Positions 14,101 through 23,100 of a DNA stretch of 64,000 nucleotides are shown piece after piece. The first letter of the stretch is position 1, and each line of letters starts with the position of its first letter. The notes under the pieces are model-generated. The model was given only the letters and a program-made list of their open reading frames with translations. It did not search any database and was not told the DNA's origin. The DNA is from Corallium rubrum (Eukaryota > Cnidaria > Anthozoa > Scleralcyonacea > Coralliidae): assembly GCA_964035015.1 (NCBI GenBank), contig OZ036008.1:8522004-8586003 (forward strand). The letters run 5' to 3'. The position numbers and the translations under genes are program-made.

Positions 14101-17100
14101 CAAACGATGACAAAGTCTCCTCAAGAACGCGTGGACGAAATGAAAGAAATTATTAACAGGTTGGTAGTTTCCTGAAGGCTGATTGAGTGAACTATTGTAA
14201 TTGGCTGACTATCTCATGAATTATTAATGCTTTGAGATATAAATCATTAAATCATAATACTCGATAAAATTCTTATTCGTATCTCACGATCTTTTTGTTT
14301 TTTTATCAGGTTTGTGTTTGCCATTCCAGCAGTAACAACGCCACGTATTAGAATGCATGCATCCCATCCTCCTCCTTCTTACTTAGCAACACAGACACGG
14401 TTTGAAGAAACGTTAAAGGACCAGCTCTCGTCAAAGATGACTCTACTCCATCCTATAATCCGCGGACAGTTGCTCCAGTTTCCTGAAGTTAGGTTGATCC
14501 AGTATGACTGTGGTAAGCTCACTTGGTGACATCATAACATTCAGTTATTCTCCACTCAATTTTTAACAGCCGTACGTCGTGGTGACTGGTCAGTTCCAAT
14601 TGTGACCGGTCAAAGGCGATTTTTGACCGGTCAAATTTCACGATGTCCCCCCCCCAAAAAAACCCCCAAAACAAACAACAACCCAACAACAAAAAAACCA
14701 ACAACAAAAAAAACAAACAAAAAACCCAACCCAAAACAAACAACAAAACAACAACAACAACAAAAAACCCCAACAAACCCCAACAAACCCCAACAAAAAC
14801 AAACAAAACACAACACAACACAACACAACACAACACAACACAACACAACACAACACAACACAACACAACACAACACAACACAACAAAAAACATGTAAAGT
14901 ATATTCTACGCTATACATATAAGCTAGTACTGTACTGATATGAACGTTTGTCATAGTTCACTTCAATATGTATCAGACATTATGAAACGGGTCTACAACA
15001 GCACAACAACAATCATTTTAAGTTCCTTCAAAGGGAAGTAATAAAATTAATTGCAAGTTAATATGACCGGTCAAAATGAGCGGTGTTATACAAATTTGAC
15101 CGGTCACATTAAAAATTTGGCCAGTCATTGACCGTTGACCGGCTGAGAGAGAGGAACAAAAGAAAGCTCTGCTGCATGCGCAATGGGCACCAGTCACGAA
15201 TACATGTCAGTTGCTTGGTTACAATCTCGAACCCAGTCCAAATCAGAGCAGAAAACAAAACAAAACAAGAACCGGTTAAACGGGTCTTAAACGGGTTACT
15301 TCGTCCTAAATCTTCGACAAAGCCAAACACGAATACAGCAGAGCCTACTTTTCTTCCTCTCTCTCAGCGAAGAAATAAGGAAAATAAGGCTCTGCTTATT
15401 TATTTATTTATTTATTTATTTAGCTTCGCTTCTTACAAAAAAAACAACAACAAACAAAACAACTTATAAAATAAAGAAGCTGGGACACCACAACAGCTTG
15501 AATGCCAATTACAGTGGGCCCTTGGTCAGATCAGAAAAAATAAAGAAAAAAAAATAAAATAGGACAGTCATTGTAATTAATAGCAGCAAGTTAATGGTTG
15601 AATGAGACTTCTACCTATGTTACATTTAAGGCAGATAGTTCTCCAAGATCGTGGATCATCAGCAGAGTAGCAGGAACGTAAGGCAGTAGAATAATAGTTC
15701 CGTAGTGATTTTCTAAATTTAGTAATAGACAAATTATCTAGAACGGGATTAAAAAACGTGCACGACAACCTGTACAGCGTGCAGAAACAGCTGGAATTTT
15801 CTTTGCATAACAATGTTGATTTTTAATTTTTTTCAGGTAAACTTCAAACTTTAGATCATCTTTTGAGAAAATTAAAAGCAGGCAAACACAGGTTTGTAAA
15901 TGTGTGACGGGTATTTTGTGAGCTGTTCTCTTGCTTTAGTTTAAGAAAATGACAATCTAGTAGCCAGCAATCTACACTCTTACTCAATTGCGGTCAGAAT
16001 GTAAGTCTTGGTAACACCGCTGCCTAACGTTTTACGCATGCGCGACGTCCGAGCTCGTCCTCAAAAAAAGAGCGGGAAAACACTGAAAAATTTGGACTGG
16101 TCCGAGTTTCCGACACAAAAGTTAAAATTATAAGCATACTACCAAAAAGATAAGGTAGGTAATTTGTACATGGCTTTTTTGTCAATATTGTAACATATTC
16201 TGAAATTGCCCATTCGTAATTTTCTTTACTCTTTTTTTAAAACACAAATGAATAGTCGAGTCGTACTTAGTCTTCACTGTCTGGTTGTTGTCGCCACGGC
16301 TAGTTCCCACTTCTCTTGCAATGTACTCACGCATGTGCAAACGTTTGACAGCGGTGTTGGTTTTGGTAGATTTTCTGCTGTGATGAGTTGCTTTCGGTCC
16401 GTGTTTCTGAAATCAATTTGTGACGATTAGAAAGCTCTGAGCAGAGCGTTTGGAAAGTACCACAAGGTATATTTTATATGTGGTGTTGTTAGCCTCAAAC
16501 TCGGCCATCAATATCATGTCCTTACTTCCTGATGTAGTCTGTTAACTCTGTCCCTCCCACCATGTCAGCAGGTCTCCCCGTCATGAGTAAAAATAACTCG
16601 CCAATAGACGTTATTGGAGGATTGGTGCCAAGCCCCAAGGGGATGCCGGGTGGGTGGGTCAACACAATGCAAGCAAGATTCCCCACCAGTGCTTCCACTT
16701 TGCAAGGAAATTTCCTTCCATGGGCCTGTCACCATGGGGGGAGGGGTCAGATATCATTAGCCTTCTTTGCAAAAGTTCTTTGTTTCTCTTGTTTATCTAA
16801 ACCCTCCCCCATAGTGACTGGGCTATGCAAATAAAAAGTGGAAGCACTGTTCCCCACCTATTAACTCAATGAGCAGCGCGCGCAAAACCAGTCAAGCTCA
16901 GACCACACTGACAAGAACTCTGACGAGCGTTGAGATAATCACCACATATTACATATGAGTGACCGCTGACCAAGTATCTATTACATAGATAGCGCGCGCA
17001 AACCAGTCAAGCTCAGACCACGCTGACAAGACTTTGTGGAGTGCTGAGATAATACCACGTATTATAAGCACGCGCAACCAGTCAAGCTCAGACCACGCTG

Positions 17101-20100: not shown

Positions 20101-23100
20101 CGATGCTGAGTCAGATTTTCAAGCAATGATCGCAAATGATACGCCTGACGAAGAAACGGCGACAAAGAAAAATGCCAAATCTCAAAATGCATTTGAACAG
20201 GTAAGAAATACTTCAAGATTACGAACATTCTGTCTGTATATACCGGACGTCCGAGAACAAATTTTCTATTGTAATAAAAGCGAGAATTTGTGGTAACACC
20301 CGGCACGTTTAATATTTAGTGAGGAGCTTTGACCTGTTGACTCAGGCCTTCATCAGAGCAAATGCTAAAATTTTCTATTATCACTGTTTACTCAAGTTTC
20401 TTTTCCCAAAGTTTCTTTTCAATTTTATGACCATTGAGCCGTAGTAAATAGTTGTTTATTTATGTGTGTGTTTGTTTGTTTGTTTGTTTGTTTGTTTGTT
20501 TGTTTGTTTGTTTGTTTGTTTGTTTGTTTGTTTGTTTGTTTGTTTGTTTGTGTGTTTGTGTTTGTTTGTTTGTTTGTTTGTTTGTTTGTTTGTTTGTTTG
20601 TTTGTTTGTTTGTTTGTTTGTTTTGTTTGTTTTGTTTGTTTTGTTTGTTTTGTTTGTTTGTTTGTTTGTTTGTTTTGTTTGTTTTGTTTGTTTTGTTTGT
20701 TTTGTTTGTTGTTTGTTTGTTTGTTTGTTTGTTTGTTTGTTTGTTTGTTTGTTTGTTTGTTTGTTTGTTTGTTTGTTTGTTTGTTTGTTTGTTTGTTTGT
20801 TTTGTTTTGTTTTGTTTTGTTCGTGTTCATTCGTTTATTTGTTTGTTTGTTTGTTTGTTTGTTTGTTTGTTTGTTTGTTTGTTTGTTTGTTTGTTTGTTT
20901 GTTTGTTTGTTTGTTTGTTTGTTTGTTTGTTTGTTGTATACCATAATACCAAACCTATGTAAAGTTTAAATATTGAAATAGCGATGATGGTTTCGTTTTT
21001 TAGGCTTTAATGAAAGCTGAAGACGAGCAAGATGTCAAAGCAGCTTCGTTATTGAAAGCTGAACAAGATGCGGAGTTGGATGAATTCGATGAAAATATTC
21101 CTTTGGACGAAGAAAATCCTGCGGTAAGCAACATGCAACATTTTACATATTTTATTGATTATAAATTAGTCATTATAGTCAGTTTCAGCTTGCTTTTGAA
21201 ATTCGTTTGTCAACATTTGTTGAAAAGTTGGGAACTAGGTACGGAAGTTCGCGAAGTTCATTGGGAAGTTCGAATTTAATAAGCTTTGATTTGAATTCCT
21301 TTGGCGAAATCACGGAGTAGAAGATTATTTGTTGTATAGTGTTTGATGGAAATGAAAAATAATAGATACTTGGTTAAACAGGAACAAATTGCCGACTTAA
21401 ATTTGTATCTACCTCGCAATGTAGTTCTGAACATTGCAACGTAAGTTCGGAATGTTCAATTCAATTATACGTTTCGGATTTCAAAAGCAAGCTAAAACTG
21501 ACTGTAATGATGACGAATTTTTAAGTATAGTGAATAATAAACCTTGCTGATAATTGGTCAATAATTAATATCAAATTAATATTCTTCAGACCAGTCAAGC
21601 TGTCTCCAAAGTTGAGGAGGAACTTCGTGAACTAGAAAATCAGGTAAGATGAAAGTTGATAAATTGTGTTTTTTCAATTCCAAAATCGTGATAAGTTGTA
21701 CGTATACGATAAGTTGTAAGCTCGCAAACGTTGAAAGGGGTGTTGGTGGCACAGTGGTTAGTGCACGTGCCTTTCACCTCAAAAAAAAAATTACCGTGGC
21801 CGCATGTGAGAAGAGTGCTTCCAGTTTGACTCTACCAAACACCACAGGTTTCCTCCGGGTACTCCGGTTTCCTCCTGTAGTAACACTGAACCAATGAGGG
21901 TGGGCCCTTACTGGACCTCCGAGGATAACAGTTTATCCAGTATAAATAAATAGTTTATCCAGTATAAATAAATAGTTTATCCAGTATAAATAAATAGTTT
22001 ATCCAGTATAAATAAATAGTTTATCCAGTATAAATAAGGTTAGTTTACCACATGCACTACATGTATACGCACAACTTATTATATCACTTTAACTACATCT
22101 CATATGCAAACGCTACCACTTAGGAGAACATATGACTATGAATTTGCAACCTTAGCTCTCCATCTGAGCCTCAGTGGCTCAATGATTAGAGCATTAACTG
22201 GTCATTAGAAGGTTGAAGGTTTGAACCCTGTTTGGGGCTCAGAAATCTTTTCTGAGTAATTGAGCTTGACGAACGTCCGCCAAACGTCTGTTACAAAATC
22301 ATTCTCATATAGAAACACCAAACGTGTGTTTTTCAAATTTAGTAAATTTCTATGTATAAGGGACTATTTCACACTATTTGTAGCAAAAACTGTTTTATTC
22401 GATTTCTGAGCTCCAATTAAAACACTACATTGCCATGACGAATCACCTATGAGCGATTTCTGAACTTTTTAAGACCAAGTTTTCCCACAAAGTTTAGCAC
22501 ATTCTTGGTGAAAAAAGCTTGATTTTACCTAGTATTTTCTTGACTGTATTTTGAAATCTTGGCTGTATATACTGACAACCCCGTACGTGGCAATGTGGAA
22601 CCGCCGGCAACGTGCTTTCCAGGAGTCGGGTTGTTTAGTATTACGTTTATTTTCGTTGTTGTGTTTTTTAGCTTTCTTCAGTCGAGAGATACGCTGTCCA
22701 TTTCGTGGAATCTTCGTATAATTTCGTTTCAGCCGAACAACTTGATCTCGACGAGGTTTGTAGCAACATTTTTTAGCTATATATAACTATTTGTAGTCGT
22801 GCGAGATTTTGAGAGAGCCGCTATTTTGTTTTCACGACAAAGATGTTTGGACTTTCACGCACAACCCACGATAGCTGTGTCTAAATCATTACTATACATT
22901 TCCTCAGTCTTTTGTCTTTGTACTCTCTTGGTCCAATTAAAAACATGCCTATATTCTGATCTTGAGTTTTCTGTGATGATGACTTGCTTTCGGTCCGTGT
23001 TTCTGAACTGATTGTGACGACTGTGAAAGCTCTGAGCAGAAATACTGATCAGTGTGGTGGCAAAATAAACTAGTTTTAATTAGTTATTTGGTTAGTTATA

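Follow-up and report, generated by a model that had tools for sequence, protein, structure and literature searches.

Vertebrate genomes carry the box C/D small nucleolar RNA (snoRNA) U18 as SNORD18A, B and C in separate introns of a single host, the ribosomal protein gene RPL4, and a 64,000-nucleotide stretch of the Corallium rubrum genome (contig OZ036008.1, C30:8522004-8586003, hereafter the window) raises the question of whether the same family can be housed in a gene of quite another kind. An initial annotation had placed four U18/SNORD18-type elements in introns of a SWR1-type chromatin remodeller gene, and this placing was borne out by Rfam matches and by a shared anatomy, with all four elements (c1 to c4) on the plus strand. 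These elements are very probably U18-type box C/D snoRNAs made from the introns of an SRCAP-type gene, and they agree with vertebrate U18 in family, guide and 28S target, and also in that a single host gene carries more than one copy, each in its own intron. The points of difference from vertebrates are the SRCAP-type host, the number of copies and the absence of any detected copy from RPL4.

Anatomy of the U18-type elements

The gathering score of the Rfam SNORD18 model (RF00093; 41 bits) was reached by three of the four copies, c1, c2 and c4. In c1, a terminal stem (TCTGC/GCAGA) encloses box C (GTGATGA), an internal stem (GCTTTC/GAAAGC), the guide GGTCCGTGTTT, box D' (CTGA), box C' (TGACGA) and box D (CTGA), and c2 shares this anatomy. 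Within the trimmed alignment boxes D', C' and D, the box C core UGAUGA and both stems are common to every copy; box C conforms to RUGAUGA, boxes D' and D are CUGA and box C' is UGACGA throughout. When flanking sequence was included in the alignment, the likeness among the copies ended at the terminal stems. All cells of the terminal stem are paired (100%), with C-G replaced by U-G at two pairs, and slid versions of the stem gave only 37–55%. The internal six-base stem GCUUUC/GAAAGC is invariant among the copies; at this place the printed Rfam consensus of SNORD18 has UCCACU/AGUGGA and that of SNORD126 has GCAUGU/ACAUGC. The bases thus differ from both consensus sequences yet pair, which argues that pairing was kept while the bases changed, the comparison being a reading of the consensus rather than a covariation test. 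A MAFFT alignment with the consensus lines did not align the stem base by base.

A number of observations weigh against this assignment. The initial annotation had called for the SNORD18 model to be run on the region, and c3, the lowest of the four, scored 37.2 bits and fell below the threshold that the other three passed. Folds of the isolated U18 RNAs surpassed those of shuffled sequences weakly if at all (z of -2.15, -0.51, 0.10 and -1.04), the minimum-energy fold of c1 is not the C/D fold, and the observed covariation score was reached by 500 of 500 pair shuffles. Distances from the elements to the 3' splice site are not uniform (1514, 157, 80 and 558 nt for c1 to c4), and the guide of c3 carries a mismatch, described below. 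The U18/SNORD18 identity is supported by the Rfam model for three copies and by shared anatomy for c3.

SNORD126, whose related guide addresses an adjacent site in 28S and whose internal stem has the same position, offers another name for the four copies. The TGC/GCA of its terminal stem is alike, and c3 scored 43.9 bits with the SNORD126 model, above its SNORD18 score. This value nevertheless falls short of the 55 bits required for SNORD126, and c1, c2 and c4 reached only 29.1–30.1 bits. Furthermore, the D' box of SNORD126 is shifted by three bases in the 3' direction, whereas in all four copies D' directly follows GUGUUU or GUAUUU, not GUUUCAG, and the methylation register is therefore that of U18. 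An assignment to SNORD126 is very improbable, and the copies are treated as U18 in what follows.

Guide, 28S target and the divergent copy

The 28S target proposed in the initial annotation was found in the genome's own ribosomal DNA (rDNA), where the exact segment GAAACACGGACCAAGGAG occurs at 22 places on 11 contigs (none for the reversed control), and the region around one of these matches fits the eukaryotic large subunit (LSU) rRNA model along its full length. The guide proposed as common to the four elements is intact immediately before the D' box in c1, c2 and c4 but not in c3, although the boxes and stems proposed with it are present in all. Complementarity on the D' side to GAAACACGGACC, with an A at position D'+5, is perfect in the three copies with the intact guide, and the 12-base duplex has a calculated energy of -20.2 kcal/mol for each of them and -14.0 kcal/mol for c3. 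The D'+5 rule predicts methylation at the A of GAAAC-A-CGG, which has position 838 in the LSU match. This predicted base is the known U18 methylation site, given as Am1313 for human in the table of PMC3511168 and as A1263 for chicken in PMC2653536. The 28S segments of this genome are spread across many contigs and are variable, with one LSU copy (L017) being without the GACAGG segment, and some rDNA copies may be degenerate.

On the D side, neither c1 nor c4, the two copies tested, has an exact match of at least 7 bases to 28S, and additional base pairing of the D'-C' spacer with rRNA did not exceed that of shuffles. When 35 kb of the gene was scanned for paired C and D boxes accompanied by 10 bases of guide complementary to the fetched 28S sequence, c1, c2 and c4 alone were returned on the sense strand, and the same scan for 28S guides was empty on the opposite strand. 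According to PMC5389607, yeast U18 has an unusual C'/D' motif and directs modification of the same target region with a D'-side guide; its D' box is AUGA, its C' box has an extra base and it directs two methylations, in contrast to the CUGA and UGACGA boxes and the one predicted methylation here.

The U18 copies would be transcribed together with the SRCAP-type host and freed by splicing and debranching, after which exonucleases would trim the intron to an RNA of about 70–73 nt protected within the snoRNP. The guide before the D' box would then pair with the 28S segment, and fibrillarin would place a 2'-O-methyl group on the A that lies five bases away from D', as the anatomy suggests. The three copies with a perfect guide are expected to act in this way, and c3, with its mismatch beside the target, would probably be weaker or redundant.

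The guide of c3 is GGTCCGTATTT, in which a G-to-A change at the base beside the one that pairs with the target gives a C-A mismatch. A variant of the favoured reading, to which we give somewhat less than an even chance, is that c1, c2 and c4 are working U18 genes and that c3 is a decaying pseudogene. The mismatch, the lowest Rfam score and the lack of any rDNA variant fitting its guide (an exact pattern search for GAAATACGGACCAAG returned no occurrence genome-wide) all point in this direction, but c3 retains all boxes and both stems, with one stem pair kept as U-G, and it lies 80 nt from the 3' splice site, a favourable spacing in mammals. The preservation of this anatomy despite a changed guide might also be read as a change of target, to another RNA bearing GAAAUACGGACC or in a different register; however, GAAATACGGACCAAG, the full-length variant, was absent from the genome, the shorter 12-mer lying outside that search, and this reading is improbable. 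Taken as a U18 copy, c3 is probably weaker, redundant or decaying, and beside three intact sisters it makes a natural test of a guide mismatch that adjoins the methylation site.

Host gene, copy number and the RPL4 locus

The exons around the U18 copies found their best match among solved protein chains in human SRCAP (E 2.1e-106), followed by yeast SWR1 (2.6e-77), EP400 (2.4e-52) and INO80 (about 1e-48). HSA (1.6e-17), SNF2 (1.2e-27, in an upstream exon) and Helicase_C (1.6e-23) domains were identified. The gene starts more than 8 kb before the window, and the exons for the HSA domain, in locus L029, also gave SRCAP as the best match. Best matches for both parts tested thus support an SRCAP-type (SWR1-class) remodeller as the host, in agreement with the type first proposed.

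Each copy occupies its own intron, as had been claimed, and all four introns are GT-AG (Table 1). Joined by hand across GT-AG introns, the last seven exons (17960 to the stop codon at 23927) form a single frame that is open to the end. The three introns between those of c3 and c4 (20201-21003, 21124-21589 and 21644-22671) hold no U18, so that three consecutive introns with a copy are followed by three without and then by one more; this spacing fits the introns 12, 13, 14 and 18 of the initial annotation. Repeats at 16991-17356, 20452-20935 and 23111-23519 comprise a 76-base satellite in the c1 intron and, in the c4 intron and one other SRCAP intron, tetranucleotide arrays of great length.

Table 1. 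Coordinates of the snoRNA-like elements and of the modelled parts of their host gene (window positions unless preceded by C30)
Feature	Position	Strand	Description
U18 copy c1	16374..16445	+	72 nt; intron 15892-17959; Rfam SNORD18 46.2 bits (16375-16444)
U18 copy c2	18774..18843	+	70 nt; intron 18075-19000; Rfam SNORD18 42.4 bits (18775-18842)
U18 copy c3	19922..19994	+	71-73 nt by stem end; intron 19313-20074; SNORD18 37.2 bits (19923-19991)
U18 copy c4	22970..23042	+	71-73 nt by stem end; intron 22756-23600; SNORD18 45.5 bits (22971-23039)
c1 host intron	15892..17959	+	GT-AG, 2068 nt
c2 host intron	18075..19000	+	GT-AG, 926 nt
c3 host intron	19313..20074	+	GT-AG, 762 nt
c4 host intron	22756..23600	+	GT-AG, 845 nt
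Last seven exons of SRCAP-type host and introns between	17960..23927	+	hand-modelled; helicase C-terminal domain to stop codon
H/ACA-like h1	C30:8515828-8515973	sense	upstream of window
H/ACA-like h2	C30:8519815-8519960	sense	upstream of window
H/ACA-like h4	C30:8521183-8521319	sense	upstream of window; seen by gene self-comparison
H/ACA-like h3	5012..5155	+	SNORA26-like; hairpin, degenerate H box AGAACG, hairpin, AUA; SRCAP intron 4901-6828

Searches of the whole genome (474.35 Mb in 312 contigs) placed U18 in this gene alone. The pattern GGTCCGTRTTTCTGA, comprising guide and D' box, occurs four times, all within the SRCAP-type gene (none for the reversed-pattern control), and a DNA search with c1 returned four places, c1 to c4, at 100, 90, 85 and 84% identity. 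With the Rfam SNORD18 model, for which the best 60 of 75417 first-look candidates were scored, three matches were obtained, all in this gene. A covariance model of the four copies gave no further match, at E up to 10, in the window, the RPL4 locus or the 20 kb upstream, and the U18-like pattern was absent from the viral collection. Because the genome-wide family searches score the best candidates only and the pattern searches are exact, a diverged U18 elsewhere in the genome is possible.

As a positive control, SNORD14 was found at two adjoining places on contig C39 with 67.4 and 54.9 bits against a cut-off of 64. Two SNORD14 and two SNORD12/106 matches lie there within 1.5 kb (positions 4691-5402 and 3974-4071 of L038, C39:11616000-11625900), which shows that the genome search does detect snoRNAs elsewhere and that two-copy C/D families at one place exist elsewhere in this genome. 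Visual inspection of the open frames listed for this cluster revealed no HSP70-like one, and its host may be non-coding. SNORD16 gave no match among the best 52 of 55930 candidates scored, nor in any of 14 control genomes.

The manner in which the copies differ bears on their origin. Outside the D'-C' spacer, the six copy pairs agree in 341 of 372 cells (92%), compared with 18 of 49 inside it (37%), and none of 20000 random 10-column draws gave an identity as low as that of the spacer. The 60-base flanks are unrelated, as the initial annotation had claimed, with 15–25 identical positions in 12 pairwise comparisons, which is near random. Recent copies would have kept both spacers and flanks alike, so the divergence of both argues against recent copying. 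The pattern is that expected of old U18 copies held by selection, and the sequence comparison supports the initial annotation in setting selection against recent repeat spread. In place of the many strong repeat matches that the annotation had named as contrary evidence, the genome searches gave four places, all of them here. A genomic repeat as the identity of the U18 and H/ACA-like copies was rejected on genome-wide searches for both families.

It is hardly credible that the U18 copies lack a function and are retroposed snoRNAs or fragments of a dispersed repeat brought into one gene by chance. Repeats and tRNA-like elements do sit in introns of the same gene, and the mobility of snoRNAs is documented in PMC3511168. 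Against this, there are only four matches genome-wide, all in the sense orientation of one gene, no A-rich tail was seen by eye behind any of c1 to c4, and the spacers have fallen to 37% identity while the remainder has stayed at 92%.

For vertebrates, the initial annotation had named RPL4 introns as the seat of U18, and this was confirmed for chicken, in which the copies lie in introns 2, 5 and 6 according to PMC2653536. RPL4 of the present genome was located at C52:1148882-1151242 on the minus strand by three exon matches of the Pfam L4 family, which also includes mitochondrial L4. Reading frames and a protein search, with a piece of cytosolic RPL4 as the query, identified the locus as the cytosolic gene (two matches, both there and up to 84% identical). 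In the 9.9-kb RPL4 region no snoRNA family matched at E 0.5 or better and no U18-model match was found at E 10 or better, and a model of the H/ACA-like RNAs yielded only a noise match of 14 bits. RPL4 was thereby rejected as a second U18 host in this genome, and the difference in host choice from vertebrates that had been foreseen is consistent with an RPL4 gene in which no C/D RNA was detected.

H/ACA-like RNAs of the same gene and the choice of host

A second family, of four H/ACA-like RNAs (h1 to h4), was found in the same gene; one of them, h3, lies inside the window and goes beyond the four U18 elements first annotated. A model of their common 3' domain matched exactly h1 to h4 in 94 kb (E 4.2e-19 or better), with the next match at E 0.61. 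The 17-mer TCCTGTCAGGAGCWATA occurs four times genome-wide, once in each of h1 to h4 and always in the sense orientation (none for the control), and a genome DNA search with the h3 stretch returned three places, h3 itself and two at 2–6 kb before the window. Each of h1 to h4 can be drawn as two hairpins with an H-type box (consensus ANANNA) and a terminal AUA, the H box being AGAGUA in h1 and h2 and AAAUGA in h4. Compared with h1 and h2, a C-G pair of the 5' lower stem is changed on both sides to U-A in h3, and compared with the other three a C-G pair of the 3' upper stem is U-A in h4.

With SNORA26 these RNAs share the 3' pocket (UAAAAC and CCUGUC), the lower stem and the position of the third box. 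The SNORA26 model, with a Rfam gathering score of 40 bits, matched h3 at 5031-5157 with 29.3 bits (E 0.078 in a permissive scan of 1-15500 and E 0.0015 on 301 bases). The 3' pocket pairs with the 28S segment GACAGGU-U-AGUUUUA through 5–6 and 6 bp in h1, h3 and h4, the 3' domain of h2 being that of h1, and the segment is present on the rDNA contig C71. The common pocket of h1 to h4 should accordingly be able to pseudouridylate the conserved 28S uridine of GACAGGU-U-AGUUUUA, if the predicted pairing holds.

This reading also has evidence to its disadvantage. The SNORA26 scores of h1 and h2 were 28.9 bits each, so that all three matches are below the gathering score of 40, and h4, whose 5' hairpin differs from that of SNORA26, was not reported down to an E of 1. 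None of the four RNAs has ACA as its third box, which is AUA throughout, and the H box of h3 is degenerate. The 3' hairpin lacks its lower stem when h1 and h2 are folded at minimum energy, one further pair of the h4 3' upper stem is broken, and the covariation was reached by 174 of 500 pair shuffles. The pseudouridine target segment was not found in the LSU copy L017 or at five other rDNA loci, the majority of which end before this part of the LSU. The genome-wide scan with the Rfam SNORA26 model, which reported no match among the best 48 of 41880 candidates scored and gave matches beneath its cut-off in 6 of the 14 controls, weighs neither for nor against.

The RNAs h1 and h2 are identical at 141 of 146 positions and their downstream flanks at 42 of 60, and on this likeness of both copies and flanks the pair is judged to be recent. 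The flanks of h1 and h3 are unrelated (13/60 and 20/60). Three separate introns hold h1, h2 and h3, and h4 lies between an exon with its end at gene position 16547 and another starting near window position 1156, where a small extra exon is possible. All eight RNAs are sense-oriented and, as far as the exons are modelled, in separate introns.

Intronic snoRNAs change hosts, and many of their hosts serve ribosome making. Human SRCAP presumably hosts SNORA30, EP400 SNORA49 and METTL14 SNORA26; if SRCAP and EP400 do each host an H/ACA RNA, the use of a remodeller as host is not in itself new. Each family taken singly consists of ordinary intronic snoRNAs, and what is unusual is the host and the occurrence of both classes in it. 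Among the literature titles and abstracts searched, none names an SRCAP-type gene or Domino as host of U18, SNORA26 or both. Multi-copy intronic U18 is already known, as is host change in principle, described in PMC3511168 as the constrained drift of such RNAs from one broadly expressed host to another, which leaves a conserved family in a non-orthologous gene. The present case differs from those in that two families of different classes, with four copies each, share one host.

To judge from the genome searches, neither family seems to have a source in this genome other than the SRCAP-type gene. The arrangement would have arisen by a change of host and a rise in copy number within that gene, which is assumed to be broadly expressed. 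By analogy with the three copies in chicken RPL4, which may do the same, the four U18 copies may serve dose. It is a tentative and rather unlikely extension of this that SRCAP, as the single source of two guide families that modify 28S, sets the dose of two rRNA modifications through its own transcription and splicing, with four copies of each kept because the host is only moderately expressed. Two guide classes found only in one remodeller invite a test of whether a host is chosen by expression alone or also by function, and of whether copy number compensates for a weaker host.

Further features were noted in and around the host gene. An open frame at 3917-4441, between SRCAP coding exons, resembles by eye the end of a LINE reverse transcriptase. 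Seven matches to the tRNA model were found (13712-13784, 22168-22239, 33369-33441, 33470-33542, 39655-39726, 39928-39999 and 44525-44596), the first two inside the SRCAP gene, and these are probably heads of tRNA-derived short interspersed elements. A 5S rRNA match at 47884-47994 was barely above threshold (39.6 versus 38 bits) and is possibly a 5S-derived repeat. In locus L030 (4846-4968), on the minus strand opposite the SRCAP gene, the H/ACA model plasmodium_snoR31 matched with 40.3 against a threshold of 60 bits (E 0.014). The start of the window is spanned by a 607-base palindrome (C30:8521515-8522121, L030 8015-8621), a fold-back that is 98.8% self-complementary and whose core was matched, below threshold, by several unrelated miRNA models.

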